This document shows positions 1 through 16,688 of a stretch of DNA of 64,000 nucleotides, in pieces; the first letter of the stretch is position 1, and every line of letters begins with the position of its first letter. The notes under the pieces are model-generated. The model did no database searches. It saw only the letters and a program-made list of their open reading frames with translations, and was not told the DNA's origin. The position numbers and the translations under genes are program-made. This DNA is from an uncultured Bacteroidales bacterium (lineage in GTDB: Bacteria; Bacteroidota; Bacteroidia; Bacteroidales; UBA932). Location: positions 1 through 64,000 of the forward strand of contig CALUST010000015.1 of assembly GCA_944323505.1 (NCBI GenBank). Reading direction: 5' to 3'.

Positions 1-82
1 CAACACGAAGCTGAGATTTATGCTTTGTCCATTTTTCAGACAAAGGACCCTCAGGAATCTTAGAAATTAGTTTTTCGGCCAT
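1..82 (-). CDS. frdA: Fumarate reductase / succinate dehydrogenase flavoprotein subunit, N-terminus only
   Basis: Only the first 27 codons are inside the window; the gene continues beyond the left edge. The translation from the ATG at 80-82 reads MAEKLISKIPEG, then PLSEKW. This matches the characteristic pre-FAD leader of Bacteroidetes FrdA/SdhA proteins (KIPEGPxxEKW), which precedes the FAD-binding domain. In the family this subunit carries covalent FAD and reduces fumarate (or oxidises succinate) on the cytoplasmic face of the membrane. The leader before the ATG is A-rich (gatataaa), as usual in this phylum. In Bacteroides a cytochrome b gene (frdC) normally lies directly upstream, but here the upstream gene is an unrelated hydrolase. 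The identification rests on a short but distinctive leader. Confidence 0.75.
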   Translation of the reverse strand, partial: MAEKLISKIPEGPLSEKWTKHKSQLRV

Positions 83-109
83 TTTATATCGATTAATGAA
101 ATTTCGGCA

Positions 110-140
110 CAATTTTAATCAATTTTAAGCGAATTAACAA
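110..140 (-). promoter_or_regulatory. Possible Bacteroidetes-type promoter for frdA
   Basis: On the minus strand TTG (138-140) is followed after 20 bases by TAAAATTG (110-117), one mismatch from TAnnTTTG. A second TAAAATTG copy lies at 120-127. The predicted transcription start would be about 20 bases before the ATG. The AT-rich setting makes chance matches likely. Confidence 0.35.
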
Positions 141-179
141 TTAATTCGGGCATTATCAATACAATCTTGCATCCTTATA

Positions 180-1418
180 TCAATCAGTATGAAGATAATT
201 TTCAAATGAATCGGTATATATCCCGAAAAATGACGAAGAGACAATGTCATATTCATCCATATACTCCTCCTTTGAGATCCGGCCTGAAAGATAGGATGAA
301 TATAGAGGCAGGAAAATGTCCCTTATCCTCTTTTCCGCTTCTCTCGCACAGTCCATAAGAGAGCCGTCACTCCTCAGGACATGTTTCAGACAGACATAAC
401 GGGACATGCTGCTTATGTCAGGAAAGAAGACATACTTCCATTTCAGGTACGACGACACTCCGCAGAAAGTGTCTTCTCCGGAAACAGGATATGACGAAAG
501 TTCCTCGGGGATGTGACATGAACCGGATACAGGTACGGGTACTGTGACAGATGTGGCAGGATAGCCGAGCGCGGCCCATATCACAGCCCGGGATGGCTCC
601 TCTCCGATGCCGACACCATGGATGACTACTGACGCAGATGTGGACCTGCGGGGTATGAAATCAAGGTCGGCAGCCAGCCCGCTGGTCCCGGAAAGAAATT
701 CATCAGCGTCCCTTACAAGGTCAATACCGAGCATGTCCTGCCTGTATGAGCGGGACAGGCTGTCAATTATGTCACAAGGTCTTATGCGGGAAAGGAACCC
801 GTTGTCCCTCATACGGTTGAATATGCCTTGGGCAGTGATATGCCTCTCTATTCCTTTCCATCTGTCCTTATCCCCGGATACAGAGAAATTGGTGACCACA
901 TAGAAACCGTCATGACATTCATTCACATCAATCTTGGTATATGAGAAGTTGCCAGTCTCGTACCATGCTGCACCTCCGTGAGCATCTATGCAGCCGAAAT
1001 TGGCCTCAACGCCCATAGGGCGGGAAAGAGTGTCGAGGAAATTCTCGAAATCATCGAGGCTTGCACAGATCTCAAGCGCCCTGTACATGAGAATCCCCTC
1101 CCTGTCCATCATGGAGGAAGGAACATCGTCATTCTTCAGACAGTATGAAGCAGTATTCATCACCGCAAAGCCGGCAGTATTGATACCTATCCACACCTCA
1201 CCTCCTTCAGAATCGGAATTGACCAGACCAGTGAATGAATATCTCTCACCCCTGAAATGCCTCAGACTGTTGTCAAGATGGTCCGTATCACGGTTTTTCC
1301 ACATCAGAGGCCGTCCGTCGGCAGTCACTTTCCCTGAAATTATCACGGATGTACAGCACTCGGACCTGAGCGGAAATGAAAGGAGCGCAAGCAATAGTAA
1401 CACATACCTGAATGCCAT
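180..1418 (-). CDS. Secreted Ntn-hydrolase of the C45 / linear-amide C-N hydrolase type
   Basis: A 412-residue protein with a signal peptide (hydrophobic residues 5-17) ending at a Cys-Cys pair, C21-C22. Signal cleavage would expose a cysteine followed by Thr-Ser. That is the arrangement of the self-activating N-terminal nucleophile in acyl-CoA:6-aminopenicillanate acyltransferase-like (C45) and choloylglycine-hydrolase-like enzymes. The motif WKNRDTD at 40-46 gives the Arg and Asp that follow the nucleophile in this fold, and WIGINTAGFAVMN is the next conserved strand. Such enzymes cleave or form linear amide bonds (bile-salt amides, N-acyl amino acids, penicillins); the substrate here cannot be read. 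The gene starts 40 bases downstream of ruvB on the same strand and may be co-transcribed with it. Family membership is fairly secure, specificity is unknown. Confidence 0.75.
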   Translation of the reverse strand: MAFRYVLLLLALLSFPLRSECCTSVIISGKVTADGRPLMWKNRDTDHLDNSLRHFRGERYSFTGLVNSDSEGGEVWIGINTAGFAVMNTASYCLKNDDVPSSMMDREGILMYRALEICASLDDFENFLDTLSRPMGVEANFGCIDAHGGAAWYETGNFSYTKIDVNECHDGFYVVTNFSVSGDKDRWKGIERHITAQGIFNRMRDNGFLSRIRPCDIIDSLSRSYRQDMLGIDLVRDADEFLSGTSGLAADLDFIPRRSTSASVVIHGVGIGEEPSRAVIWAALGYPATSVTVPVPVSGSCHIPEELSSYPVSGEDTFCGVSSYLKWKYVFFPDISSMSRYVCLKHVLRSDGSLMDCAREAEKRIRDIFLPLYSSYLSGRISKEEYMDEYDIVSSSFFGIYTDSFENYLHTD

Positions 1419-1458
1419 ATCGCTATTCTTTTAATTGACTATCCGCAGATATACCAGT

Positions 1459-2490
1459 TCAGAACAGTCTCGCATCATCCTCATCTGACGCTGTCTCCTT
1501 CTCATAGCCGAGATGACTGTATGCCAGTCCGGTAGCCTCCCTGCCTCTCGGAGTACGTATGATGAAGCCCTCCTTTATGAGGAAAGGCTCATACACCTCC
1601 TCCAGAGTCCCCTGGTCCTCGCCTATCGCAGTGGCTATCGTATTTGCCCCGACTGGCCCGCCCTTGAACTTGGTGATGATTGTCCTGAGTATCTTGTTGT
1701 CGATGGCGTCGAGTCCCCTCTTGTCTATATTGAGGGCATCAAGGGCATATCTTGCGATATTCAGATCAATATGGCCGTTGCCTATGACCTGTGCGAAGTC
1801 CCTGACCCTCCTCAAAAGCGAGTTGGCTATTCTCGGGGTACCACGGCTCCTCAACGCTATCTCATAGGCGGCATCATTCTCTATCCCTATCTTCAATATC
1901 GACGCACTTCTCTTCACAATATGCACAAGAGTCGACGTATCATAATATTCGAGGGCGCATGTGATGCCGAACCTTGCCCTGAGAGGCGATGTGAGGAGCC
2001 CGCTCCTGGTGGTGGCTCCGACAAGGGTAAACGGATTGAGAGATATCCTGACACTGCGGGCACCCGGACCCTTGTCTATGACAAGGTCGATGACAAAGTC
2101 CTCCATAGCGGAATAGAGATACTCCTCCACCACAGGTGAAAGCCTGTGAATCTCGTCTATGAACAGCACATCCCCCTCCTCGAGTGAAGTCAGAAGCCCG
2201 GCAAGGTCTCCCGGCTTGTCAAGGACAGGACCCGAAGTCACTTTCAGATTTACCCCGAGCTCGTTTGCTATGATATGTGCAAGGGTGGTCTTCCCGAGTC
2301 CGGGAGGACCATGGAAAAGGACATGGTCGAGAGACTCCCCTCTCAGTCTTGCGGCCTTGATGAACACCTTCAGGTTGGCCACGATCTTGTCCTGCCCAGT
2401 GAAATCTTCAAGATCCTGAGGCCTTATAATTCCGTCAAAATCCTTATCTTTGTCCGAATTGACATCATGTGGGTCGAAATGTCCGTTCAT
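1459..2490 (-). CDS. ruvB: Holliday junction branch migration ATPase RuvB
   Basis: A 343-residue AAA+ helicase subunit, the usual length. Walker A is GPPGLGKTT at 61-69, Walker B contains the DEIHRL box, sensor 1 is GATTRSG, and LRARFG supplies the arginine finger. The C-terminal winged-helix domain follows, with a short acidic tail. RuvB hexamers drive branch migration of Holliday junctions together with RuvA; neither ruvA nor ruvC is in the window. A perfect -7 element (TATATTTG, minus strand, 2546-2553) lies about 60 bases upstream of the ATG, inside the divergent region shared with mfd. Identification is secure. Confidence 0.97.
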
Positions 2491-2818
2491 CTTGTCAGAA
2501 GTATCTTAGGGTCCGGTCGCACGGCGACATCATCATAAAAACATACAAATATAATTCTTTTTATATTTCTTCTGATGATGTTTATACTTCTGTTGAAATG
2601 TTGACAAATCATGCAAATCATTATGAGTCAATTAATATTATATGTGTAAAATTGTTGATAACCATGATGTGAACTTTTTCTGAACTTTTCTTGTCCAGGC
2701 TTTGATATTAATTTCAGGTTCCGTATATATTTTTTCAGTTTCTGGCATAATTTACTTTTCACGATTTATCATCAGGCTTGTCAACAGGTTTTTAACAAGT
2801 TTTCAACATAGATTTCAA
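2491..2818. other. AT-rich divergent intergenic region with a DnaA-box-like cluster; candidate oriC or DnaA-binding region
   Basis: No gene is seen in these 328 bases between divergent ruvB and mfd. The region contains a 37-base, almost G-free AT-rich core (2536-2572) flanked by a perfect 9-bp inverted repeat, ACATCATCA (2527-2535) and TGATGATGT (2573-2581). To its right lie TGTGTAAAA (2643-2651), which fits the relaxed E. coli DnaA box TGTGNAWAA exactly, and TGTTGATAA (2653-2661), one base from TGTGGATAA. Weaker relatives are TGTTGAAAT (2591) and TGTTGACAA (2599). Three 9-mers of the opposite orientation, TTGTCAACA (2778), TTTTTAACA (2789) and TTTTCAACA (2800), are spaced exactly 11 bp apart. 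Box cluster plus AT-rich segment is the layout of a bacterial origin; promoter function for the flanking genes is also certain to be here. Confidence 0.45.
2701..2733 (+). promoter_or_regulatory. Possible promoter for mfd
   Basis: TTTG at 2701-2704, a 21-base spacer, then TATATTTT at 2726-2733, one mismatch from TAnnTTTG. Transcription would begin near 2740 and the leader of about 80 bases would include the three 11-bp-phased repeats. The AT-rich setting lowers confidence. Confidence 0.35.
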
Positions 2819-5800
2819 ATGGTGACCATAAGTTCCGACAAATCATCAGTACTTTCAGGCAGACTTGCTTCTGAAAATGAGATATACTGCTCAGGACTCA
2901 TACTTTCCGCACGATGGTTCGTGGTGTCCCGTGTCGCTGTGAAAGGCGTCAATGTGATAGTGATGCCTGACAAGGAAAGCGCAGAGTATTGTGCATCCGA
3001 CCTCTACAATCTCATAGAAGGCGACAGGGTGTTCTTCATGCCTGACTCCGGCAGGAATCTCGAGAAAAGCAACTACAAGTCGTCACTCGGCGTGCAGAGG
3101 ACTTCCGCCATCGGGAGCATTGCCGGACATAAGGACGGGGAACTTGTGTTCATAGTCACTTATCCCTCCGCACTCGAGGAGCCTGTACCTGATACAGGGA
3201 TGATAAGAGAGTCGGTAATATCATTGTCTGTCGGTCAGGAGACTGCGCATGATGATCTCATAGCAAGACTTGCCGGGCTCGGATTTGAAAGGGTGGATTT
3301 CGTTTCATCCCCTGGCCAGTTTGCCGTAAGGGGCGGGATAGTTGACATCTTCTCATATTCATACAACAATCCTTACAGGATAGGGTTTTTCGGAGACGAG
3401 ATAGAAAGCATAAACATATTTGACTGCAATACGCAATTGTCCGTGCAGAAGACAGACTCTGCGGATATATTCCCTGATTTTTCAGAAGGTCTTTCAGAGG
3501 GGATGACTTTCATATATGACAGGCTTCCCGAGGATTCGGTGGTATGGCTCGACTCTTCCGACATGTACAGGGACCGTCCTTTCTTCAGCCGTCTTACTGC
3601 CTTCAGGCATGTGTTCATTGACACTCCCCTTTCATACAGGGGAAATGATGTCGTAAATTTCAGCATTTCCCCCCAGCCGGTATTCAACAAGAATTTCGAA
3701 CTCCTTACATCTGACATAAGGAAGAACATAGAGAACGGATATAAGGTATTCATATTCGGGGAGAAGGAGTCCCAGCTCGAAAGGCTCAGGTCAATACTTG
3801 TTGAAAACGGAGGGATACAGCCTGAGTTCCGTCCGGGGAAGAATATCCACAACGGCTTCATTGATAATGATGACAGGATATGCTGTTATTCCGACCACGA
3901 GATATTCGACAGGTTCCACAGGGTGAGCATAAGAAGGACTGTTGAAAAGAGCGAGCAGCTCACAATCAACGATCTGACGTCGTTCAATATAGGCGACTAT
4001 GTTGTCCATATAGACTATGGAATAGGTATTTTCGGCGGCCTTGTCAGGATGAGGGACGACAAGGGAAGGGTACATGAGGTGGTCAAGCTCACCTACAAGG
4101 ACAATGATACGGTATTTGTCTCCGTACATGCACTCCACAAGATATCAAGATACAAGTCAAAGGATTCAGAGCCTCCAAAAATCAATAAGCTTGGCTCCAA
4201 GACATGGCAGAACCTGAAAAGCAGCACCAAATCCAAGGTCAAGGATATAGCAAAGGAACTCATTCAGTTGTATGCCAGGAGAAAGGCAGCCAAAGGATTC
4301 GCGTTCTCCTCTGACTCTTATCTGCAGCAGGAACTGGAGTCCTCATTCATGTATGAGGACACTCCTGATCAGGAGAAGGCTGTGAAAGCCGTGAAGAGGG
4401 ATATGGAGGACAACTGTCCTATGGACAGGCTGATATGCGGTGATGTTGGTTTCGGCAAGACGGAAGTGGCAGTGAGGGCTGCATTCAAGGCTGTAGCTGA
4501 CAGCAAGCAGGTGGCTGTGCTTGTCCCTACAACGATACTCGCACTCCAGCACTATAACACATTTGCAGGCAGACTGAAGGATTTTCCTTGCAGCATAGAC
4601 TATGTCAGCCGTCTCAGGACTGCAAAGGAGGTCTCCGACATACAGCAGAGACTCAAGAACGGTACTCTCGATATAGTCATAGGTACGCATAAGCTTCTCG
4701 GCAAAGGGTTTGAATTCAAGGATCTCGGACTGCTGGTGATAGATGAGGAGCAGAAATTCGGAGTAAGTGCAAAGGAAAAGCTCAAGCAGATGAAACTGTC
4801 TGTTGACACGCTCACATTGACGGCCACACCTATTCCGAGGACATTGCAGTTTTCTCTTCTAGGCGCAAGGGACCTCTCTATCATCAACACGCCTCCTCCT
4901 AACAGGATACCTGTACAGACTGAGATAATGCTCTTTGAAAATGATGAGATCAAAAGCATAATAAACTATGAACTGAACAGGGGAGGCCAGGTATTCTTCG
5001 TACATAACAGGGTGGAGGAACTTGATTCCGTGAGAGATATATTGCAAAGGCTCGTCCCTGACATGAAAATATGTGTCGCTCACGGGCAGATGGAGCCTAA
5101 GGTGCTGGAGAACAAGATACTTGACTTCATGGCAGGAGACTATGACCTTCTCCTGTGCACCACAATCATAGAGAACGGTCTTGACATACCGAATGCCAAT
5201 ACCATCATCATCAACCAGGCGCAGAATATAGGTCTCAGCGACCTCCATCAGTTGAGAGGGCGTGTGGGAAGGTCCAACAAGAAGGCATTCTGCTACCTTA
5301 TAGTGCCGCCTCTTACATCCATTACAGATGATGCAAGGCGGAGGCTCAAGGCCATAGAGGCGTTTTCAGACCTCGGCAGCGGGTTCAATATCGCAATGCA
5401 GGATCTTGACATTAGGGGAGCCGGGAATCTTCTCGGTGCGGAACAGAGCGGGTTCATCTCCGATATGGGACTTGAGACCTATCAGAAGATACTTGCCGAA
5501 GCCATGGAGGAACTCGGTGTGGAGACAGGCATGTCTTCAGGAAGGACCGAGGACCAGACTGTGTCCGACTGTTCTATAGAGACCGACCAGGAGGCTCTTA
5601 TCCCTGACAGTTATATAGGAATCACTGCAGAGAAGATAAGGATATACAAGGAACTGGACTCATTGTCTGATGACAGGCAGATAGACGGCATGAGAAAGAA
5701 ACTTGCCGACAGGTTCGGAAATATCCCTGAGGAGACCGAGAGACTGTTTGATATAGTGAGGATAAGACATCTTGGGGAAAGGCTCGGATTCGAGAAGATA

Positions 5801-6007
5801 ATAATAAAGAACGGGCTGCTGATAGCGTTCTTCATATCCAATCCGATGTCCAGGTACTACAGGTCAAGGAAATTTGCAGATATACTTGACGGCATCAACA
5901 GGAATGCGCCTCTGTTTGAACTCAAGCAGAACGATGACAAGTTGAGGATAATAGTCAGGAACATATCTACTATCAATAAAGCATATTCTGTTTTGAAGAA
6001 ATTATAG
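2819..6007 (+). CDS. mfd: Transcription-repair coupling factor Mfd
   Basis: A protein of 1062 residues from the ATG at 2819. The frame stays open to a TTG at 2702, but the added 39 residues are unlike Mfd and overlap the predicted promoter, so I use the ATG. The order is: N-terminal UvrB-like module; RNA-polymerase-interacting domain (GDYVVHIDYGIGIF); SF2 translocase with Walker A GDVGFGKTE, DEEQ box, the TATPIPRT motif and the QLRGRVGR motif; and a C-terminal TRCF domain. Mfd removes RNA polymerase stalled at lesions and recruits UvrA. It opens a plus-strand run continuing into coaX 40 bases downstream. Identification is secure. Confidence 0.96.
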   Translation: MVTISSDKSSVLSGRLASENEIYCSGLILSARWFVVSRVAVKGVNVIVMPDKESAEYCASDLYNLIEGDRVFFMPDSGRNLEKSNYKSSLGVQRTSAIGSIAGHKDGELVFIVTYPSALEEPVPDTGMIRESVISLSVGQETAHDDLIARLAGLGFERVDFVSSPGQFAVRGGIVDIFSYSYNNPYRIGFFGDEIESINIFDCNTQLSVQKTDSADIFPDFSEGLSEGMTFIYDRLPEDSVVWLDSSDMYRDRPFFSRLTAFRHVFIDTPLSYRGNDVVNFSISPQPVFNKNFELLTSDIRKNIENGYKVFIFGEKESQLERLRSILVENGGIQPEFRPGKNIHNGFIDNDDRICCYSDHEIFDRFHRVSIRRTVEKSEQLTINDLTSFNIGDYVVHIDYGIGIFGGLVRMRDDKGRVHEVVKLTYKDNDTVFVSVHALHKISRYKSKDSEPPKINKLGSKTWQNLKSSTKSKVKDIAKELIQLYARRKAAKGFAFSSDSYLQQELESSFMYEDTPDQEKAVKAVKRDMEDNCPMDRLICGDVGFGKTEVAVRAAFKAVADSKQVAVLVPTTILALQHYNTFAGRLKDFPCSIDYVSRLRTAKEVSDIQQRLKNGTLDIVIGTHKLLGKGFEFKDLGLLVIDEEQKFGVSAKEKLKQMKLSVDTLTLTATPIPRTLQFSLLGARDLSIINTPPPNRIPVQTEIMLFENDEIKSIINYELNRGGQVFFVHNRVEELDSVRDILQRLVPDMKICVAHGQMEPKVLENKILDFMAGDYDLLLCTTIIENGLDIPNANTIIINQAQNIGLSDLHQLRGRVGRSNKKAFCYLIVPPLTSITDDARRRLKAIEAFSDLGSGFNIAMQDLDIRGAGNLLGAEQSGFISDMGLETYQKILAEAMEELGVETGMSSGRTEDQTVSDCSIETDQEALIPDSYIGITAEKIRIYKELDSLSDDRQIDGMRKKLADRFGNIPEETERLFDIVRIRHLGERLGFEKIIIKNGLLIAFFISNPMSRYYRSRKFADILDGINRNAPLFELKQNDDKLRIIVRNISTINKAYSVLKKL

Positions 6008-6047
6008 ATAATATTATTAACTTTGAAAGTTTGAATGATAATACAAA

Positions 6048-6773
6048 GTGGCCAATCTTGTTATTGACATAGGTAATACTGCCCTGAAAGCGTCATGGTC
6101 CGATGGTGTCACACTCGGGAAGACATTCAGGTATCAGGGAGAGAAGATGCCTGACTTCATCATGTCTCTTATATCGAAGGACAGGCCGGATGTGATGGTG
6201 ATATCTTCAGTACGCGAGATCTCACGACAGAATGAGGAGAATTTCAGAAAAAGGTGCGGACATCTTGTATTGCTTGATCCGGCTCACAGGGAATATCTCA
6301 CAGAAAGAGGTATTCCTGACTATCTTTCATCAGACAGGGCAGCCTCGATAATTGCCTCAAGATACCTCTTCAGAGGAAGAGGATGTTCCATATTCGACTT
6401 CGGCACCACGCTTACAATTGATTTCACCGGTCCTGACGGCAGTTACAAGGGAGGGAATATCTCTCCCGGTTGCAGGACGAGATTCAAGGCTCTGAACAGG
6501 TATGCCAGGTCCCTTCCCCTGCTCGATACACCTGAGAAAACAGAAATTACGGGAAATGACATGGTTTCATCCATAGAATCAGGGGTCATATCAGGCATGG
6601 AATTTGAGATACAAGGCTATCTGTGTCAATTTCCTGACAATATTGTGGTTTTTACTGGGGGTGATGCAAATTATTTTGCAAAAAGAATGAAAAACCCCAT
6701 CTTTGTAGTTTGTAACCTTGTTTTAATGGGTCTGGCTCTAATGGCTGAAGATTATGTCGAAGAAGATTTGTAG
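6048..6773 (+). CDS. coaX: Type III pantothenate kinase
   Basis: A 241-residue protein from a GTG start at 6048; no ATG precedes the first motif. It phosphorylates pantothenate, the first step of CoA synthesis, and is cytoplasmic. Type III signatures are present: DIGNTALK near the N-terminus (phosphate binding), SSDRAA, FDFGTTLTID and GGNISPG. Its 3' end overlaps the next gene by 20 bases, so the two are probably translated together. The pairing of CoaX with an outer-membrane protein, a TPR protein and LptC is a recurring gene order in Bacteroidetes, as far as I recall. Confidence 0.93.
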   Translation: MANLVIDIGNTALKASWSDGVTLGKTFRYQGEKMPDFIMSLISKDRPDVMVISSVREISRQNEENFRKRCGHLVLLDPAHREYLTERGIPDYLSSDRAASIIASRYLFRGRGCSIFDFGTTLTIDFTGPDGSYKGGNISPGCRTRFKALNRYARSLPLLDTPEKTEITGNDMVSSIESGVISGMEFEIQGYLCQFPDNIVVFTGGDANYFAKRMKNPIFVVCNLVLMGLALMAEDYVEEDL

Positions 6774-8085
6774 CATACTTTCATTTTGCCTCTGCCTTTT
6801 TTGCGGGATTGTGGCGTATGGGCAGGATAATGGTGCATACGGGTCGTTTTCCCCGTATTCCATATATGGTATAGGCAATATAGCCAAGGAAGGTACTGCA
6901 TATAACAGGAGCATGGGAGGCGTCGGGATAGCCAACAGGAACAGGAGATTCATAAACATACTCAATCCTGCATCGGTTACTGCAAGGGACTCGCTGTCGT
7001 TCATGGCTGATTTCGGACTTTCCGAGAGCAATACGGTGTACAGGCAGAACATGGGAGGCAACAGGCTGGTTTCCGCCAACAACACTTTCAACATACATGA
7101 CTTTGTGATAAGTTTCCCTATATACAAGTCATCTGCATTCATGATAGGTATAACCCCTTTCAGCGATGTCGGTTACGAGTTCTCTTCTGATGTGACGGAT
7201 GGGAGCATCATAGGGAACACAGGCAACATCACATACAGCAATTACGGGGAAGGAAGCATATACCAGGTCTTTGCCGGTGGTGCCGCCACATTCTGGAGAC
7301 GTTTTTCGGTAGGCGCGCAGCTGATATATTATTTCGGGTCACTGGACAAGGTATATGACATGAACTACTATGACTCGTCTTTCAGATCTGTGAACAACGG
7401 GTATAATCTTCTGCTGAGAGGAGTCACAGGCAAGTTCGGGGTACAGTATGAACAGCCTCTGGGAAACAATCTTACATTGACTGCAGGTGCCACTTACAGG
7501 CTGAGGACTAATGTGAAAGGGGAAGTCACCGACTATAGTTATGCCACCACTTCAGAGACCACTGATACATTGCGAAACAATGTGACTGCCCTCGGAAATG
7601 TCAATCATTTAAGATTCGGTGATGAATTGGGTGTAGGAGTGGCTTTGAGAAGCGGAGAGGACTGGAGTGTGGAGGTCGACTATCTCATGTCTGACTGGAG
7701 GTCATCCGGAATGGACGTCACTGACGGGTTTGCTGCAAGGGGAAGTTCCGTGTTTACGGCTTCGGTGTCCCATTCCGTAAGGGCGGGGTTCGAGATAGTC
7801 CCGAACAGAAACGACATAAGGTACTATCTGAAACGATGTGCATACAGGGCAGGAGCGTACTATGATACCTCCTATTACCTTTTTGACGGGAACAAGGTGA
7901 ATTCGTTCGGTATAACTCTCGGTGTCACCCTCCCGGTATTCAGATTGTATAACGGAATCTCTCTCGGAGTGGATTTCGGCCAGCGCGGAAGTATGAGGAA
8001 CAATATGGTCAGGGAAAGATACGTATCGTTCGCGGTAGGATTCAATATCCATGACCTGTGGTTCATCAAACATAGATATGATTGA
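6754..8085 (+). CDS. Outer-membrane beta-barrel protein (OmpP1/FadL-like)
   Basis: A 443-residue protein with a clear signal peptide (hydrophobic residues 6-21, cleavage after AYG). The mature protein opens with SPYSIYGIG and GGVGIA, followed by a long series of alternating polar/aromatic beta strands up to FNIHDLWFIKHRYD. This pattern fits the family of Bacteroidetes barrels annotated as OmpP1/FadL-like transport proteins. The substrate is not known; FadL itself takes up hydrophobic molecules, but that function should not be transferred. It starts inside the end of coaX and is followed 15 bases later by a TPR gene, so it belongs to the envelope operon ending at 12231. Confidence 0.75.
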   Translation: MSKKICSILSFCLCLFCGIVAYGQDNGAYGSFSPYSIYGIGNIAKEGTAYNRSMGGVGIANRNRRFINILNPASVTARDSLSFMADFGLSESNTVYRQNMGGNRLVSANNTFNIHDFVISFPIYKSSAFMIGITPFSDVGYEFSSDVTDGSIIGNTGNITYSNYGEGSIYQVFAGGAATFWRRFSVGAQLIYYFGSLDKVYDMNYYDSSFRSVNNGYNLLLRGVTGKFGVQYEQPLGNNLTLTAGATYRLRTNVKGEVTDYSYATTSETTDTLRNNVTALGNVNHLRFGDELGVGVALRSGEDWSVEVDYLMSDWRSSGMDVTDGFAARGSSVFTASVSHSVRAGFEIVPNRNDIRYYLKRCAYRAGAYYDTSYYLFDGNKVNSFGITLGVTLPVFRLYNGISLGVDFGQRGSMRNNMVRERYVSFAVGFNIHDLWFIKHRYD

Positions 8086-8100
8086 TTAAAACTATAAATT

Positions 8101-9423
8101 ATGAAGAAATTACTGCTTTCTTTGCTTGCCGTATTCATGATCGGCGGAACAGCTGCATTCGCACAGGGAAAATATGGTCCTGACAGTGCTGAATGTATCA
8201 AATATCTTTCCTATTACAAGGAATACTTCAAACAGAAGAGTTATGATCTTGCCCTTCCTAACTGGAGGCAGGCATACAAGATCTGCCCTCCGACAGCAAA
8301 CCAGACCATGCTTATTGACGGTACTTCCCTCATGAGGTATCTCATAGGCAAGAACAGCAAGAATACCATCTACAAGGATGCTCTTGTGGACACTCTTCTC
8401 ACAATCCATGAGACACGTGCACAGTATTATCCGAAATATGCCGTGACTGCGATGAACAATATGGGTCTTGATATGATCAATTATGTGAAGAATGATCCTC
8501 AGAGACTCTATGAAGGTTTCAAGAAGGTGATAGAGGCAAACCAGGAGAATACCAAGCCTCAGATTTTCCTCTTCAACATCAACACTGCCGTGGAACTCTA
8601 CCAGAGCGGTGTGCTTGATGCAGAGACTGTGATGGAAGACTATGAGGAGGCTCTTTCCATGCTTTCAAAGATGCAGCCTAAGAACGATGTCGAGAAACAG
8701 CAGAATGACAAGATAAAGACTGATATAGAAAGTCTTTTCATCGCCAGCAAGATAGCAAGCTGCGACAATCTCATCGCCCTGTTCTCCCCGAGATTCGAGG
8801 CTAATCCGAACGACCTTGAGACAGTCAGCACAATCGTGATGATGATGGGTTCTACAGAGGGATGTACTGACAATGAGCTTTTCCTCAATGCCATCACCAA
8901 GATGCATGAACTTGACCCTTCATACAACACTGCATATTTCCTCTACAAACTCTACAATTCAAGAGGCGACATAGACAGTGCAATCAAGTATATGGAGGAG
9001 GCAATCGCATACCCTGAGTCTGACAGTCTGCAGGATGCCGCATACTATTATGAGCTTGCAGCCGCATGCTACAAGGCAGGAAGAAATTCAAAGGCATTCG
9101 AGGCTGCACTTGATGCAATCGATCTTGACTCTTCGTATGCAGGCAAGTCCTACCTTCTCATCGGTACCATCTGGGGCTCACAGGTATGTCCTGGCAACGA
9201 GATTGAGAAGAGGGCACCGTACTGGGTTGCAGTCGACTATCTTGTGAAGGCAAGGAATGCCGACCCTACTCTCGCAGAGGAGGCAAACAGGCTCATCTCA
9301 CAGTACAGCACATATTTCCCTCAGACTGCTGAGGCATTCATGTACAACATCACCAACGGGGATTCATATACTGTATCCTGCGGCGGTATGAGGGCGCTTA
9401 CTACAGTAAGGACACAGGACTGA
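8101..9423 (+). CDS. Exported tetratricopeptide-repeat protein
   Basis: A 440-residue protein with a typical signal peptide (MKKLLLSLL start, cleavage after AFA). The rest is rich in helical-pair repeats of about 34 residues; the best seen are around 285-375 (for example DIDSAIKYMEEAIAY and NSKAFEAALDAIDLD). TPR arrays are protein-binding scaffolds, and this one should sit in the periplasm. It lies between an outer-membrane barrel gene and lptC, separated by 15 and 4 bases. Such a protein is commonly found at this place in Bacteroidetes genomes, but I know of no established molecular role. The envelope context suggests a part in outer-membrane assembly. Confidence 0.75.
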   Translation: MKKLLLSLLAVFMIGGTAAFAQGKYGPDSAECIKYLSYYKEYFKQKSYDLALPNWRQAYKICPPTANQTMLIDGTSLMRYLIGKNSKNTIYKDALVDTLLTIHETRAQYYPKYAVTAMNNMGLDMINYVKNDPQRLYEGFKKVIEANQENTKPQIFLFNINTAVELYQSGVLDAETVMEDYEEALSMLSKMQPKNDVEKQQNDKIKTDIESLFIASKIASCDNLIALFSPRFEANPNDLETVSTIVMMMGSTEGCTDNELFLNAITKMHELDPSYNTAYFLYKLYNSRGDIDSAIKYMEEAIAYPESDSLQDAAYYYELAAACYKAGRNSKAFEAALDAIDLDSSYAGKSYLLIGTIWGSQVCPGNEIEKRAPYWVAVDYLVKARNADPTLAEEANRLISQYSTYFPQTAEAFMYNITNGDSYTVSCGGMRALTTVRTQD

Positions 9424-9427
9424 TACT

Positions 9428-10060
9428 TTGATACGCAGATCAAATAATGTTTTCAGGATGGTGGCAACCGCGATTGCGGTTGCTACCGTCGTTTATTCAT
9501 GCAAGAGCAATCTTGGCATAGCCGATTCCCTGAATCTTGACGAGACGCCTGTGCAGACTGTGGACAATATGTTTGTGGTACAGTCGGAAAACGGGATTCT
9601 GCAGATGAGGATGGAGGCTGACCTCATGGAGAGATATGACAGGGATACATTGTCATACGAACTCTTCCCTGAGGGTTTTGCAGTGTACGGCTATAACGAT
9701 GAGGGGCTTCTTGAGACCGAGATAACATCGGACAACGCCAGGCATGAGAAATACAAGGAGGGTGATAGGGAGTCCTGGCAGGCATTCGGCAATGTGGTCG
9801 TCAAGAATATCATCAACAAGGAAGTGATGGAGACGGATACCCTGTACTGGGACAGGAAGAACGGGAAGATATATACGGATTGCTATGTAAAGATGTATTC
9901 TCCCGACGGCTTTATCCAGGGGTACGGGATGGAGTCTGACGAGAGGGCGAGGAACACCATTATACTCAAACCTTTCGACAATTATGCCTTTGTGGTGCAG
10001 GACAGCACCGAGACAGTCGTCGATTCTGTCAATTTTATAGGGCCACTTCTAAAAAAATAG
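9428..10060 (+). CDS. lptC: LPS export protein LptC, lipoprotein form
   Basis: A 210-residue protein starting at TTG 9428, four bases after the TPR gene. An ATG at 9458 is possible but would remove the Arg-rich start of the signal peptide. The N-terminus has a hydrophobic segment ending in VVYSC, a lipoprotein box. The remainder is a string of beta strands of the LptA/LptC jelly-roll type (DUF1239), such as ESWQAFGNVVVKN and DTLYWDRKNGKIYTD. LptC links the LptB2FG ABC transporter in the inner membrane to LptA in the periplasmic bridge that carries lipopolysaccharide. Downstream is a SurA/PpiD-type chaperone. The assignment is by fold-like features and gene order. Confidence 0.8.
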   Translation: MIRRSNNVFRMVATAIAVATVVYSCKSNLGIADSLNLDETPVQTVDNMFVVQSENGILQMRMEADLMERYDRDTLSYELFPEGFAVYGYNDEGLLETEITSDNARHEKYKEGDRESWQAFGNVVVKNIINKEVMETDTLYWDRKNGKIYTDCYVKMYSPDGFIQGYGMESDERARNTIILKPFDNYAFVVQDSTETVVDSVNFIGPLLKK

Positions 10061-10134
10061 TGAGGATTTGCAGGAAAATTATTATCTTCGCAGCCCATAT
10101 TGAACCAGTAAAAAATTTAAAATCACATAAAAAG

Positions 10135-12231
10135 ATGGCGGTTCTTGAAAAAATTCGCGTAAAGTTGGGTGTATTCATAACCATTGTCATTGCATTGGCA
10201 TTGTTGTCATTCATAATCGACCCGACAACTCTTCAGGCTGTTTCCAACTCGATGTCATCAAAATATGACGTCGGTGAGATAGACGGCAAGGACATTTCAT
10301 ATCAGGATTTCGAGAAAGATGTGGAGTATTTCACCACTCTCAGCGAGATAACCACAGGCTCTTCAGCGCAGAACGAGCAGCAGATTGAAGCCATAAGGAA
10401 TGCCGCATGGCAGTCTCTTATAGACAAGTATCTTGTGCTCAAGAACGCGAAGGCTGCAGGTCTTGTAGTGGGAGAGTCCGAGATGGTGGAACTTACTACA
10501 GGGGATATGGTATCACCTGTGATTGCACAGGATCCTGTTTTCTTTGACGAGACAGGCAGTTTTTCAAAGGACAGGCTCATCCAGTTCGTGCAGAATACCC
10601 ACAATGATCCTTCTGGCAATATCAAGATGTATTGGGACTATCTTCAGAACAGCATCTATACCCAGCAGTATTATGCCAAATACGGCTCTCTTTTCTCCCA
10701 GAGCAATCTGACCAACCCTCTCATGCTGGCAAAGGAGATTGACTGGAACAACAACACTGTGGATGTGGAGTTCGTGATGGTTCCTTTCGGATATGCTACA
10801 GATACCACAATCACAGTGTCTGACAGCGAGATAAGGGAATATTACAAGGCTCACAAGGAGCAGTACAGGCAACAGGCAAGCCGCGACATTGAATATGTTG
10901 TGTTTGAAGTGGTGCCTTCTGAAGAGGATATCACGGCAGCAAACCAGCAGGTCCTCGATCTGTATGATGAATTTGCAGCGACAGACAAGGCTGACATGAA
11001 GAGTTTCCTCCTCAGAAACTCTGACAGGCCTTATTCTGAATACTATTACGGAAGCGGTGAACTCAATACTGTATCAAAGGATGTGAACGATTTCGTTTTC
11101 AATGACGGCAAGGGAGCATCCAAGGTATTCACCAAGGGGAATACATTCTATGTGGCCAAGGTTATGGACAGCAGGATGGTTCCTGACTCTGTCTTTGTGA
11201 AGCACATTCTGCTTCAGGGAGAGCAGGAGGCACTTGCAGACAGCCTCGTAGGTGTGCTCAACAGCGGCAAGGAGACTTTTGCCAATGTGGCAGCCCTCTA
11301 TTCCGCAGACCAGAATCCTAATGTGGCAGAAAGGGGAGATATAGGCTGGATGACACAGACTTATATGATTCCGGGAATGGAGTCGGTGATGACAGCCTCC
11401 CTTAACAAGATAATGGTCATTGACACACAGTATGGAAAACATATAGTGAAAGTTACTGACAGGACCGAGCCGAGACTCAAGAAGCAGGTAGCAATTCTCG
11501 AGAAGACCGCTCTTGCAAGCAAGGAGACTTTCAACAAGTACTATTCACAGGCCAACGAAGTAGCAGCCAAGGCCGCAGGCAAGTATGAAGGCTTCAGGCA
11601 GGCTGTAGAAGAGGGCGGGTTATATGCTCACCCTGTGAACAGGATGCTTGAGAGCAATGACAGACTCGGTGCGATAGATGATACCAAGGAAGTGACGAGA
11701 TGGGCTTTCGGGGCAAAGAAGGGCAAGGTTTCCGACATCATCACAGTCAACAACAACTATTTCTTCGTAGTTGCCCTCAAGGATATCCACAAAGAGGGAT
11801 ATGCTACAGTTGAGGAAGTCGCTTCCGGCATAAGGAATATCATCTACAGGCAGAAACTCGGAGAAAAGAAAGTGGCTGAAGTGTCAGAGAAGATAAAGGG
11901 ACTGACAGATATGCAGACCATAGCGGATACGCTGAAGTCTTCTGTCAGCACTAAAGAGAATATTGCCTTTGCCTCTCTTGCTTCGCAGGGACTTGACCCT
12001 AAGTTCATAGGTGCTGCATCAGTAGGGGAGACAGGAAAGATTGCAGCCCCTGTGGCAGGCAACATCGGAGTCTATGTCTACAAGGTGACAGGACATGATA
12101 CCGGCTCATTCTTCACAGAGGATGACGCAAAGGCAAATGATGCCAGGAAGACGCAGTACAGCCTCCAGATGCTTGTACCTGTAATGATGCAGGATGCAGA
12201 TGTAAAGGACAACAGGGCAAGATTCTATTAG
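10135..12231 (+). CDS. Membrane-anchored SurA/PpiD-type peptidylprolyl isomerase
   Basis: A 698-residue protein from the ATG at 10135 (MAVLEKIRVKLG). The frame is open to a GTG at 10060, but those 25 codons precede the natural start and lack family character. One transmembrane segment at about 15-35 (ITIVIALALLSFII) is followed by a SurA_N-like region. A parvulin rotamase domain around residues 340-440 has the hallmark VKHILLQG and the RGDIGWM motif. A second, degenerate region follows towards the C-terminus. The layout matches PpiD, which is anchored in the inner membrane and helps folding of exported and outer-membrane proteins. A strong terminator lies 25 bases after the stop. Confidence 0.88.
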   Translation: MAVLEKIRVKLGVFITIVIALALLSFIIDPTTLQAVSNSMSSKYDVGEIDGKDISYQDFEKDVEYFTTLSEITTGSSAQNEQQIEAIRNAAWQSLIDKYLVLKNAKAAGLVVGESEMVELTTGDMVSPVIAQDPVFFDETGSFSKDRLIQFVQNTHNDPSGNIKMYWDYLQNSIYTQQYYAKYGSLFSQSNLTNPLMLAKEIDWNNNTVDVEFVMVPFGYATDTTITVSDSEIREYYKAHKEQYRQQASRDIEYVVFEVVPSEEDITAANQQVLDLYDEFAATDKADMKSFLLRNSDRPYSEYYYGSGELNTVSKDVNDFVFNDGKGASKVFTKGNTFYVAKVMDSRMVPDSVFVKHILLQGEQEALADSLVGVLNSGKETFANVAALYSADQNPNVAERGDIGWMTQTYMIPGMESVMTASLNKIMVIDTQYGKHIVKVTDRTEPRLKKQVAILEKTALASKETFNKYYSQANEVAAKAAGKYEGFRQAVEEGGLYAHPVNRMLESNDRLGAIDDTKEVTRWAFGAKKGKVSDIITVNNNYFFVVALKDIHKEGYATVEEVASGIRNIIYRQKLGEKKVAEVSEKIKGLTDMQTIADTLKSSVSTKENIAFASLASQGLDPKFIGAASVGETGKIAAPVAGNIGVYVYKVTGHDTGSFFTEDDAKANDARKTQYSLQMLVPVMMQDADVKDNRARFY

Positions 12232-12255
12232 AATCACAATCCTGTACAGATAACA

Positions 12256-12288
12256 AAAATCTCCGCCTGTCCAGGGCGGAGATTTTTT
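12256..12288. terminator. Bidirectional intrinsic terminator between ppiD-like gene and ychF
   Basis: Perfect stem AATCTCCGCC (12258-12267) / GGCGGAGATT (12275-12284) with a 7-base loop. It is flanked by A's on the left and a T-run on the right, so it can stop transcription from either side between the convergent genes. Confidence 0.88.
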
Positions 12289-12329
12289 ATTGTGCCATGC
12301 AGCCGGCTGGCATGCAACCGTGCCGGAAG

Positions 12330-13433
12330 TCAGACATTGAACAGGAAGTGCATTATGTCCCCGTCCTGTACGACATAGTCCTTGCCTTCTATACCGAGTT
12401 TCCCTGCGGCGCGGCAGGCGGCTTCTGACTTGAGTTCAACGAAATCATCGTATTTGATGACCTCTGCCCGTATGAATCCCTTTTCAAAGTCCGTATGGAT
12501 GACTCCGGCAGCCTTCGGTGCCTTGTCTCCTTTATTTATGGTCCAGGCGCGGCATTCGTCGGCACCTGCGGTGAAGAATGTCTGAAGATTGAGCAGCGAA
12601 TATGCCTTCTGTATGAGTCTTACCACTCCGGACTCTTCAAGTCCCATTTCTTCAAGGAACATCTGCCTTTCGTCGTAGGTCTCAAGTTCAGCAATATCAG
12701 ATTCTATCTTGGCTGCGATTGTCAGGATTTCCGCATTCTCATCCCTGACAGCCTCGCGTACCTTTTCCACATATCCGTTTCCTGTTGCAGCAGAGGCTTC
12801 ATCCACATTGCAGACATACATTACAGGCTTGTTGGTGAGGAGGAAGAGGTCTTTTGCGAGAGATTCCTCTTCCGGAGTTTCAAGCTGTACAGTACGGCAT
12901 GATTTCCCGGCAAGAAGGGCCTCCTTGTATCGGAGAAGGAGTTCGCAAAGTTTCTTCGCGCTCTTGTCCCCTCCGGCCTGTGCCTGTTTCTGTACTTTTG
13001 ACAGCCTGTTTTCAACAGTCTCCAGGTCTTTCATCTGGAGTTCAAGGTCGATGACCTCCTTGTCTCTGACCGGGTCTACACTTCCGTCCACATGAACGAT
13101 GTTCGGATCGTCAAAGCACCTCAGGACATGGAGGATGGCATCTGTCTCACGGATATTTGCCAGGAACTGGTTTCCGAGGCCTTCTCCCTTGCTTGCCCCT
13201 TTTACAAGACCTGCAATGTCCACAATCTCTACAGTGGCCGGGACGACGCGTTTCGGGTTGCACAGGCTTTCAAGCACCTCAAGACGCTTGTCCGGTACAA
13301 TGGTCGAACCGATGTTAGGCTCTATGGTACAGAAAGGGAAGTTTGCACTCTGCGCCTTTCCGGAACTTATACAATTGAAAAGAGTTGATTTCCCCACATT
13401 CGGGAGACCTACGATTCCGCATTTCAATGACAT
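12330..13433 (-). CDS. ychF: Redox-/ribosome-associated ATPase YchF (Obg family)
   Basis: A 367-residue Obg-like P-loop protein. G1 is GLPNVGKST at 9-17, then the DIAGLVKGAS switch-II segment and NVDE in place of the NKxD base-recognition motif, which explains the ATP preference reported for this family. A helical/coiled-coil insert (about 130-200) and the C-terminal TGS domain (ending FLFNV) follow. YchF/OLA1 proteins bind the ribosome and are linked to stress and redox responses. The leader contains a perfect -7 element (TAACTTTG on the minus strand) and a small hairpin with GTCCTG/CAGGAC arms at 13458-13475. Confidence 0.96.
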   Translation of the reverse strand: MSLKCGIVGLPNVGKSTLFNCISSGKAQSANFPFCTIEPNIGSTIVPDKRLEVLESLCNPKRVVPATVEIVDIAGLVKGASKGEGLGNQFLANIRETDAILHVLRCFDDPNIVHVDGSVDPVRDKEVIDLELQMKDLETVENRLSKVQKQAQAGGDKSAKKLCELLLRYKEALLAGKSCRTVQLETPEEESLAKDLFLLTNKPVMYVCNVDEASAATGNGYVEKVREAVRDENAEILTIAAKIESDIAELETYDERQMFLEEMGLEESGVVRLIQKAYSLLNLQTFFTAGADECRAWTINKGDKAPKAAGVIHTDFEKGFIRAEVIKYDDFVELKSEAACRAAGKLGIEGKDYVVQDGDIMHFLFNV

Positions 13434-13542
13434 GATTCAGAATATTTTTAGTTACCGGTCCTGAAAATACAGGACTTTATGCAATTCCGCGCAAAGTTAA
13501 TACAAAAGAAGAAATAAAGTTTCACCACATTTTTCTGTTTTT

Positions 13543-13568
13543 GGACATTTTTTCTTTTTCGAATGTCC
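13543..13568. repeat. Inverted repeat upstream of the exported nuclease gene
   Basis: GGACATT (13543-13549) and AATGTCC (13562-13568) form a perfect 7-bp inverted repeat with a 12-base gap, 17 bases before the ATG at 13586. It could be an operator with half-sites about two helical turns apart, or a hairpin in the leader. Nothing decides between these. Confidence 0.4.
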
Positions 13569-13585
13569 ATTTTTGTCCGAAACAG

Positions 13586-14590
13586 ATGACACGCATGAGA
13601 AGACTGGTATATCTTATTCTGACAATGTTGCTTGTGGGCTGCCCTTGCACGTCATGGGCAGGGGAGAGGGTGGATACTCTTTCGGTGATGTTCTGGAATC
13701 TTGAGAATTTCTTTGACTACAGGGACGGCGGCACGAGCGTTTCGGACAGGGAGTTCTCTTCTTTCGGAGAAAGGCATTGGACAAAGTCAAGGTTCTATGC
13801 CAAATGCAATGCAGTTGCGAAAGCGATATTGTGGGCAGGCTCTGAATACGGCAGGATGCCGGATGTAATAGGGTTTGCTGAAGTGGAAAACCGTTTCGTG
13901 GTCTCTTCGGTGGTTGGTGCGACATTGCTACGCAAGTATGACTACGGCATAGTACATTATGACTCTTCTGATCCGAGAGGGATTGATGTGGCATTGATAT
14001 ACAGGAAATCAGTATTCGGCAGCCATACCTCCAAGCCTATGAGGATAAAGGAGTTCAGGACGCGCGACATATTGTATGTGAGACTGGAGTATGCGGAAGG
14101 CGGGCGTGGGGAAGAGGATGGAGACGGCTGTCTGCATTTTCTTGTCAATCACCATCCGTCGAAATTCGGCGGGGCGGCAATCTCAGCCCCCAGGCGGAAG
14201 GTGGCCATGAGGACGATGCTGGAAGTATGCGATTCCATACGGAAGAGTGAGCCGGGGGCAAAGATAATCTGCATGGGAGATTTCAATGACGTTCCTGACA
14301 ATCCTCTGTTTGACTTTTCCGGCACCGGGATGGTCAATATTGCCGGGCCTCTGGCAGAAAAAGGGGAGGGGACCATCAGGTATCAGGGGAAGAGGGATAT
14401 GATAGACATGTTCATTGTGTCGCGATGTATTGCGAAGCATGCAGAGATGGAAGTATGCAGGATTCCCTTCCTTACCGTATGGGACAGCACATATTCCGGG
14501 GAAAAGCCTTTCAGGACATATTCAGGTCCGAGGTATATAGGAGGAGTGAGTGACCATTGTCCTATATGGATGGAACTTGCAATGCAATGA
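13586..14590 (+). CDS. Exported endonuclease/exonuclease/phosphatase family protein
   Basis: A 334-residue protein taken from the ATG at 13586; the frame is open to a TTG at 13541 but that part is AT-rich leader. An alternative ATG lies three codons further. Residues 4-23 form a signal peptide ending near SWAG. The DNase I-like fold is shown in order by WNLENFFD, GFAEVEN (metal-binding Glu), VNHHPSK, MGDFNDVPD and the terminal SDHCPI. These are the metal, histidine and aspartate positions of the endonuclease/exonuclease/phosphatase superfamily. Substrates range from DNA to phosphoinositides and phospholipids, so the exact reaction is open; export suggests scavenging. The gene stands alone before galK. 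Confidence 0.85.
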   Translation: MTRMRRLVYLILTMLLVGCPCTSWAGERVDTLSVMFWNLENFFDYRDGGTSVSDREFSSFGERHWTKSRFYAKCNAVAKAILWAGSEYGRMPDVIGFAEVENRFVVSSVVGATLLRKYDYGIVHYDSSDPRGIDVALIYRKSVFGSHTSKPMRIKEFRTRDILYVRLEYAEGGRGEEDGDGCLHFLVNHHPSKFGGAAISAPRRKVAMRTMLEVCDSIRKSEPGAKIICMGDFNDVPDNPLFDFSGTGMVNIAGPLAEKGEGTIRYQGKRDMIDMFIVSRCIAKHAEMEVCRIPFLTVWDSTYSGEKPFRTYSGPRYIGGVSDHCPIWMELAMQ

Positions 14591-14604
14591 ACGCCGAAAT
14601 AAAA

Positions 14605-14634
14605 TTGTTTTATCGCAGGATATTGGTATCTTTG
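14605..14634 (+). promoter_or_regulatory. Promoter of galK
   Basis: TTG (14605-14607), a 19-base spacer and TATCTTTG (14627-14634), a perfect -7 element of the Bacteroidetes primary sigma factor. The start of transcription would be about 14640, giving a leader of about 40 bases to the ATG at 14683. This is the best-formed promoter in the window. Confidence 0.7.
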
Positions 14635-14682
14635 AAAGATGAATCACATGATAATGACAAAACTATATAAACCAATATCAAG

Positions 14683-15828
14683 ATGAAATCAAGAATATCT
14701 GAAAAATTCAAGACTCTTTTCGGAAAGGAAGGGGAATTCTTTGCCTCTGCAGGTCGAATCAATCTTATCGGGGAACATACTGACTATAACGGAGGCTATG
14801 TCTTCCCGGGAGCCATTGACAAAGGCATGATGGCGGAGATTCTCCTCAACGGGACCAACAAAGTATGCGCCTATGCCCTTGACCTTGACGAATATGTCGA
14901 ATTCGGTCTTGAGGAGGAGGATGCACCTGCACAGAGTTGGGCAAGGTATATTTTCGGCGTATGCCGTGAAGTCATCAAGAGAGGAGGAAAGATAGGAGGA
15001 TTCAATACCGTGTTTGCCGGGGATGTCCCTCTCGGGGCAGGAATGTCATCATCTGCCGCCCTCGAAAGTACATTCGCATTTGCGCTGAACTATCTTTTCA
15101 ATCTCGGTATCGACAAATTCGAACTTGCCCGTATCGGACAGTCGACAGAGCATAACTATTGCGGCGTGAAGTGCGGTATCATGGATCAGTTCGCCTCTGT
15201 CTTCGGCAAGAAAGGCAATCTCATGAGACTTGACTGCAAGACTATGGAGTACAAGTATTATCCGTTCAATCCTGAGGGATACAGGCTTGTCCTGCTTGAT
15301 TCGGTAGTCAAGCACGAACTTGCATCATCTGCATATAACAAGAGGAGAGAGTCCTGCGAAAGGGCTGCCGCAGCCATCAGGAAGAACCATCCTGAAGTGG
15401 AGTTCCTCCGGGATGCCCGCATGGAATGGCTTGACGAGGTGAAAGATGTCATTTCGGAAGAGGACTACAAGAGGGCCGAATATGTCATCGGGGAAGTGCA
15501 GCGGGTGCTTGATGTCTGCGATGCTCTTGAAAGGGCGGATTATGAGACTGTAGGCAAGAAGATGTATGAGACTCATGACGGCATGAGCAGACTGTATGAG
15601 GTAAGCTGCGAGGAGCTCGATTTCCTCAATGACATAGCCAAGGAATGCGGAGTAACGGGCTCACGTGTGATGGGAGGCGGTTTCGGAGGCTGTACCATCA
15701 ATCTCGTGAAGAACGAACTTTATGACAAGTTCATAGAGACTGCCAAGGCTGCATTCAAGGAGAAATTCGGACATGAGCCGAAAGTTTACGATGTGGTCAT
15801 CAGCGACGGGGCGCGCAAACTTGAATAG
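14683..15828 (+). CDS. galK: Galactokinase
   Basis: A 381-residue GHMP kinase that phosphorylates galactose at C1 at the entry to the Leloir pathway. The galactokinase signature GRINLIGEHTDYNGG lies near residues 25-40. The GHMP ATP-binding motif is PLGAGMSSSAALE near 113, and the C-terminal motif MGGGFGGCTIN is complete. The gene has its own promoter and is followed by a convergent gene eight bases away, so it is monocistronic. galM is 5 kb downstream in a separate unit; galT and galE are not in the window. Confidence 0.96.
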   Translation: MKSRISEKFKTLFGKEGEFFASAGRINLIGEHTDYNGGYVFPGAIDKGMMAEILLNGTNKVCAYALDLDEYVEFGLEEEDAPAQSWARYIFGVCREVIKRGGKIGGFNTVFAGDVPLGAGMSSSAALESTFAFALNYLFNLGIDKFELARIGQSTEHNYCGVKCGIMDQFASVFGKKGNLMRLDCKTMEYKYYPFNPEGYRLVLLDSVVKHELASSAYNKRRESCERAAAAIRKNHPEVEFLRDARMEWLDEVKDVISEEDYKRAEYVIGEVQRVLDVCDALERADYETVGKKMYETHDGMSRLYEVSCEELDFLNDIAKECGVTGSRVMGGGFGGCTINLVKNELYDKFIETAKAAFKEKFGHEPKVYDVVISDGARKLE

Positions 15829-15836
15829 GCTGTCCG

Positions 15837-16502: not shown

Positions 16503-16582
16503 CTTCCTAATATTAAAATTATCCGAGTTGCAAAGGTACTCATTTAATTATTGACTATCTGCAAAAAATCCCCTTTGTTTAA

Positions 16583-16688
16583 GCAGGCCGTAAATGTTCG
16601 GGCCGGTAAATCCCTCCCATACTTTGTATGGGTCCCTCCCGTTCACGAGGCCACGGGCGGCCACGCCGTCCGAAATTTCACGGCCTGC
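16583..16688. repeat. 106-base GC-rich imperfect palindrome (REP/MITE-like or large terminator hairpin)
   Basis: The ends are a perfect inverted repeat, GCAGGCCGT (16583-16591) and ACGGCCTGC (16680-16688). With a few bulges the pairing extends to about 22 bases per arm (16583-16606 with 16666-16688). Inside is a second perfect hairpin, CCCATAC (16616-16622) / GTATGGG (16626-16632), itself bracketed by two TCCCTCCC copies (16611-16618 and 16633-16640). The element is much richer in GC than other gaps in the window. It lies 38 bases after the stop of the minus-strand gene that ends at 16727, and GATTTTTTGC follows it in that direction. No target-site duplication was seen. Confidence 0.6.

Follow-up and report, generated by a model that had tools for sequence, protein, structure and literature searches.

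A conserved array of DnaA-type boxes between ruvB and mfd as the probable chromosome replication origin of Cryptobacteroides-like bacteria

The intergenic gap between the divergently oriented genes ruvB and mfd is very probably the chromosome replication origin (oriC) of a Cryptobacteroides-like species. It carries two inward-facing arrays of a predicted DnaA box that is relaxed at its sixth base (TTWTCAACA, exchanged for TTWTCCACA in relatives), and in relatives it coincides with the apparent switch point of leading-strand composition. A preliminary description of this DNA had named the gap as a possible chromosome origin, which is now supported by the box array, its conservation, and the skew switch in relatives.

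The window, i.e. the whole stretch of DNA that was analysed, corresponds to the initial 64 kb of contig C15 in an assembly of 1.93 Mb (1,931,830 bp, 49 contigs). By inference from sequence, it is placed in the genus Cryptobacteroides. The nearest relative among the best 80 of 583 named loci is Candidatus Cryptobacteroides intestinigallinarum, with an Mfd protein that is 82% identical.

Box inventory and box density

The gap (2491–2818; 328 bp, 30% G+C) is flanked by ruvB on the minus strand (1459–2490), which has a leading-strand-like third-position composition, and by mfd on the plus strand (2819–6007), the start of which was assigned by its ATG and by homology. Seven DnaA-box-like 9-mers are found in the gap: four strict TTNTCAACA boxes, two boxes with one mismatch, and one relaxed classical box. 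The left array is located on the minus strand and contains the strict boxes TTGTCAACA (2599–2607) and TTATCAACA (2653–2661), the slots of which are both kept in relatives, as well as a weaker box with one mismatch (2591–2599; TGTTGAAAT on the plus strand) that overlaps the box at 2599 by one base. The right array is located on the plus strand and consists of the strict box TTGTCAACA (2778–2786), the weaker box TTTTTAACA with one mismatch (2789–2797), and the strict box TTTTCAACA (2800–2808), each 11 bp on from the preceding one; its end is separated from the mfd start codon by 10 bp. The coordinates confirm what the preliminary description had reported of this region, namely at least seven such 9-mers, a tandem arrangement of the boxes at 2778, 2789, and 2800 with a pitch of exactly 11 bp, and flanking genes that point away from the gap. 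It had also highlighted the relaxed classical DnaA box on the minus strand (2643–2651; TGTGTAAAA on the plus strand) next to the strict box at 2653–2661. This box is present, but it is not conserved in an alignment of 22 sequences from the window and its close relatives.

The strict TTNTCAACA box occurs 88 times in the 1,931,830-bp MAG, which corresponds to 0.015 expected copies per 328 bp, compared to the four seen in the gap. The Poisson probability of four boxes in 328 bp is about 2e-9, or about 1e-5 when corrected for every 328-bp window. A denser box cluster at another locus had been named as an observation that would speak against an origin at this place; the whole-MAG box list contains no second stretch with four strict boxes inside 328 bp. 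The runner-up in density comprises three strict boxes in 196 bp (17877–18072) and lies within a long open frame. G+C content is 46–49% in positions 1–16000 of the window and 48–54%, mostly above 50%, in positions 16000–64000, the origin-proximal DNA being AT-richer.

Conservation of the box arrays in relatives

Two partly overlapping sets of loci were compared. The same-genus set comprises loci from 30 of 37 genomes, the own genome included. In 27 of these 30 loci ruvB faces mfd; a ruvB match is absent from the stretch examined in the remaining three (L003, L013, L030), each of which stops at a contig end. The named set comprises 81 loci, i.e. the best 80 of 583 named loci and L001, and almost all of these named relatives are metagenome assemblies from animal guts. 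Six loci that lack the mfd start or a sufficient part of the gap (L109, L118, L168, L175, L176, L179) were dropped, leaving 75 gaps for analysis, among them one without ruvB in view (L143). L168 and L030 of the two sets are apparently one contig.

A lack of boxes at this place in close relatives had been named as an observation that would speak against an origin; at least one strict relaxed box is found in 73 of the 75 gaps, with none in L147 and L180. Together, these gaps contain 182 copies of TTNTCAACA versus 3.1 in dinucleotide shuffles, and 22 copies of the classical TTNTCCACA versus 1.2. Other variants are enriched as well, namely TTNTTAACA (34 versus 5.6), TTNTAAACA (24 versus 7.1), TTNTATACA (16 versus 3.2), and TTNTGAACA (13 versus 3.2). 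The enrichment of these four variants indicates that the bases at box positions 5 and 6 are favoured rather than fixed, and the box is thus not sharply defined there. In the 30 same-genus gaps, 76 strict boxes stand against 0.63 in mononucleotide shuffles.

The arrangement of the boxes also recurs. Orientation is mostly inward, with 83 of 84 boxes in the ruvB half on the minus strand and 86 of 98 boxes in the mfd half on the plus strand, and of the 53 intervals between successive plus-strand boxes near mfd, 44 measure 11, 12, or 23 bp (75 gaps). When the gap is aligned with those of 21 close relatives, conservation is seen, among other places, in the left boxes (TGTTGA-AA), in the right tandem array just ahead of mfd, and in a block TATACAAATATA near ruvB. 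At the weaker box of the left array (2591–2599), a block TGTtG-A-ATGTTGA-AA is conserved. Further conserved blocks precede the right array at 2749–2763 (AATTTA-TTTTcA) and 2720–2737 (around TATATACGGA) and perhaps belong to the mfd promoter. The predicted arrays of TTWTCAACA are conserved genus-wide and, in part, family-wide.

The probability that the boxes are chance 9-mers in AT-rich intergenic DNA is negligible. The gaps of the genus set are indeed poor in G+C (20–38%), and TTNTCAACA is over-represented across the whole 64-kb window, with 14 copies found versus 1.96 expected; yet the excess over dinucleotide shuffles, together with the recurring slots, strand, and pitch, is contrary to a chance origin of the arrays.

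Strand composition around the gap

Of six relatives examined, four have their minimum of cumulative GC skew inside the ruvB–mfd gap or at most 36 bp from it, the gap limits in these genomes being computed from protein matches. In G013, the minimum over 80 contiguous kb is at 418,065, about 36 bp from the end of the gap (approximately 417,784–418,029); stretches sampled left of the minimum are GC-negative in 12 of 12 cases and those right of it are positive in seven of seven cases, and third-position keto bias gives a best origin at 420 kb (t = 17.4). In G065, the minimum over 220 kb is at 185,773, within the gap (approximately 185,753–186,076). Third-position measures are best at 186–191 kb in this genome, and its raw keto curve is lowest at 195,296, about 9 kb from the gap.

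Another genus of the family contributes the last two of the four, both of them single-contig chromosomes. In G280 (2.66 Mb), the minimum of the first 60 kb is at 16,396, within a 482-bp gap (16,191–16,672), and in G346 (2.38 Mb; same genus as G280), the minimum within 60 kb is at 1,494,135, inside the gap (approximately 1,493,868–1,494,313). Two-parameter fits with 20 sampled stretches each, a 20-kb grid, and a terminus held 30–70% of the chromosome away placed the origin of G280 at about 20 kb and its terminus at about 1.38 Mb (t = 12.5), and the origin of G346 at about 1.50 Mb and its terminus at about 0.23 Mb (t = 7.7). Single sampled stretches contradict the fitted sign in both chromosomes.

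The remaining two relatives have weak skew. No GC-skew minimum is present at the gap of G016, where the best GC3 origin is at 650 kb (t = 2.4) and TA3 forms a broad plateau from 120 to 200 kb with its best value at 150 kb (t = 5.6), the gap being near 202 kb. In G033, the GC minimum (143,426) and the gap are about 16 kb apart. A skew minimum at this place, as anticipated in the preliminary description, is seen in four of the six relatives; in the remaining two, the signal is weak and imprecise. As a further test, GC skew was averaged over the surroundings of 43 named loci (within about 10 kb) and gave a positive right-left contrast in just 18 of 43; this test was rejected because gene orientation dominates the signal.

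In the window itself, third-codon bias flips at the gap. The two minus-strand ORFs on the left side, which amounts to 2.5 kb, have keto3 values of +0.067 and +0.086. To the right of the gap, all 25 minus-strand ORFs have values from −0.216 to +0.004, and the 19 plus-strand ORFs average +0.071. With two ORFs on its left side, this flip is consistent with a leading-strand switch, which predicts it.

The skew data bear on a second explanation, according to which the gap is a DnaA-titration site or a DnaA-regulated promoter and the true origin lies elsewhere, for example near dnaA. DnaA boxes at non-origin sites occur in known bacteria, and dnaA of the own MAG is encoded on contig C30, not beside the gap. 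This explanation is nevertheless very unlikely given the position of the skew minimum in the four relatives and the absence of a box group of equal density elsewhere in the MAG. Replication would instead start in the ruvB–mfd gap.

AT-rich core and ruvB promoter

Two candidate duplex-unwinding elements are predicted in the gap. Among all 37-bp sites of the 64-kb window, ranked by nearest-neighbour energies, the site at 2535–2571 is the second least stable and the site at 2616–2652, between two left boxes, is the sixth least stable. The preliminary description had proposed an unwinding element at 2536–2572, framed by an inverted repeat. The composition of this segment (15 A, 17 T, 5 C, 0 G) and the perfect 9-bp repeat, formed by ACATCATCA (2527–2535) and TGATGATGT (2573–2581), are exactly as described, but the repeat is not conserved in its left arm and the core overlaps a conserved promoter-like motif. 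This motif, TATATTTG on the minus strand (2546–2553), matches the Bacteroidetes −7 element, TAnnTTTG, and is presumably part of the ruvB promoter. It corresponds to the conserved block TATACAAATATA and is located about 55 bp before the ruvB start; an overlapping 9-mer, ACAAATATA, is found in 71 of the 75 gaps. This overlap probably makes at least part of the AT-rich core a promoter. Given its rank as second least stable site, the core may serve both as promoter and as unwinding element. A run of at least three DnaA-trios, searched for with the strict pattern [TA]A[GA], is absent from the gap of the window, the published rule being more permissive. DnaA-trios next to a box have been described as a basal unwinding system with a permissive NAN rule (PMC8287927).

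Recognition of the boxes by DnaA

The 22 classical TTNTCCACA boxes are spread over 14 of the 75 gaps. Of these boxes, 17 lie at most 1 bp from a same-strand slot that is occupied by relaxed boxes in other species, compared to 4.0 expected at random. In L030 (G031:C8), which is outside the 75 gaps, seven TTWTNCACA-type boxes are found upstream of mfd, five of which are identical to TTNTCCACA, and strict relaxed boxes are absent there. The occurrence of classical and relaxed boxes in common slots suggests that a single protein reads both. The classical form is known to be read by DnaA, which is thus the likely reader of the TTWTCAACA boxes as well. By this indirect evidence, the predicted boxes of the gap would represent an exchangeable variant of the classical DnaA box TTATCCACA.

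The same slots argue against a third explanation, in which the boxes are operators of a transcription factor, e.g. a damage-response repressor, that controls ruvB and mfd and has no relation to replication. Such an operator would fit the roles of both genes in DNA repair or recombination, the end of the right array shortly before the mfd start, and the conserved promoter-like motif in the gap. A regulator, however, would not place a skew minimum and a whole-chromosome strand switch here, nor is the occupation of its slots by classical DnaA boxes expected, and this explanation is highly improbable. DnaA bound at a replication origin is the preferred reading of the arrays.

Residue 435 of E. coli DnaA contacts a base according to PMC5043019. 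At the corresponding position, 47 of 50 DnaA proteins of the genus (from 77 above the cut-off) have the motif DHA and two have DHS, with one sequence unparsed. The serine proteins are encoded by G031, which has classical-type boxes, and by G065, which has relaxed boxes. At the level of the order, alanine is found in 12 of 13 parsed proteins (19 fetched above the cut-off) and threonine in one. The idea that residue 435 cleanly switches the box type was rejected: serine occurs with both box types and alanine is usual across the order, so that the change is not tied to this single residue. The wider proposal that TTWTCAACA is commonly the main box of Bacteroidales DnaA, which has alanine at the position of E. 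coli Thr435 in most of the genomes parsed, is evenly balanced between being right and wrong. If true, origin finders that rely on TTATCCACA would overlook many Bacteroidales origins or put them in the wrong place, and the box shift would be structurally solvable from a comparison of alanine, serine, and threonine variants of helix 5.

Distribution beyond the genus

One genome was sampled from each of 20 other genera in the family. Eight of these genomes have a divergent ruvB–mfd gap of 294–482 bp with at least one box in each, and in a ninth the gap measures 1,264 bp and lacks boxes. No ruvB was seen in the stretch taken from 11 of the 20, two of these stretches being short contig ends. Overall, the ruvB–mfd pair is either not found in the stretch taken or separated in 12 of the 20 other genera (L320, L322, L325–L334). 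The pair is also present in G239. In other families, none of 20 genomes examined (out of 24) has a credible ruvB match within 2.0–2.8 kb upstream of mfd.

A tandem-box pattern was tried as a genus-wide oriC finder and discarded as too strict, as it matches 55 of 121 genomes and misses the own genome. The classical tandem pattern is found in one of 20 other families.

Groups of boxes of the same type occur at other loci outside the family. In another Bacteroidales family, seven strict TTNTCAACA-type boxes, three of them in tandem at 12 bp, lie within 437 bp (L269:7597-8033; G249:C13). This group is a candidate origin that is not beside mfd, which is encoded on contig C45. Groups of three to six boxes are present in four further families at L267:5701-5776 (G058:C24), L271:8001-8177 (G195:C28), L268:8001-8031 (G198:C1), and L270:8001-8044 (G219:C110; inside an open frame). 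The box groups in other families may mark the origins of these bacteria.

Proposed mechanism and significance

We infer binding, unwinding, and initiation at the gap in the following way. DnaA-ATP would fill the left array (2591–2661) and the right tandem array (2778–2808), the 11-bp pitch of which would place the bound proteins on one helical face. DnaA would then oligomerise over the AT-rich DNA between or beside the arrays and melt it, the best candidates being 2535–2571 and 2616–2652. Helicase loading would lead to two outward forks, co-directional with the flanking genes ruvB and mfd. In addition, the transcription of mfd and ruvB may be influenced by this DnaA, since the right array ends so close to the mfd start codon.

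With a known origin position, read coverage could be converted into growth rate and the ordering of contigs would be helped. The gap also offers a defined substrate on which a DnaA that accepts TTWTCAACA could be tested, and the sharing of slots by relaxed and classical boxes opens the evolution of DnaA-box specificity to direct tests. By the features tested, the mode of action would be the known one of a DnaA-type oriC. The ruvB–mfd location was not found described: none of the literature matches listed (titles and abstract openings, with most subscription papers and the DoriC tables outside this scope) concerned a ruvB–mfd or Cryptobacteroides origin.

Comparison with known origins

Like DnaA-dependent bacterial origins, the gap is intergenic and AT-rich, contains several 9-bp boxes with an 11-bp tandem pitch in inverted arrays, is located at the cumulative GC-skew minimum of relatives, and has divergent flanking genes. 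Unlike a typical origin of this kind it does not adjoin dnaA, a position that is typical and not required. It further differs from origins in general in its main box, which is TTWTCAACA and not TTATCCACA, in having no clear DnaA-trio run, and in an unwinding element that is putative. The preliminary description had pointed out that origins of Bacteroidetes are often away from dnaA. This agrees with the location of dnaA on another contig and with PMC4755523, in which an oriC far from dnaA is described as common in the phylum.

A similar case is the oriC of chromosome I of Prevotella intermedia, another Bacteroidota origin derived from a GC-skew transition and DnaA boxes and located far from dnaA (PMC4755523). 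In contrast to the gap described here, it was predicted with the E. coli DnaA box, allowing one mismatch, and ruvB and mfd are not named in the corresponding part of that paper. The drift of the DnaA box at one position resembles epsilonproteobacterial origins, for which it is discussed (PMC5043019) together with changes in helix 5 of DnaA (E. coli residues 435 and 438–439). The two cases differ in the base concerned: the fifth base has changed to T in the epsilonproteobacterial boxes (PMC5043019), whereas the sixth base has changed to A in the boxes of the gap. Set beside these helix 5 changes, the alanine at position 435 of the genus DnaA is shared with most other Bacteroidales parsed.
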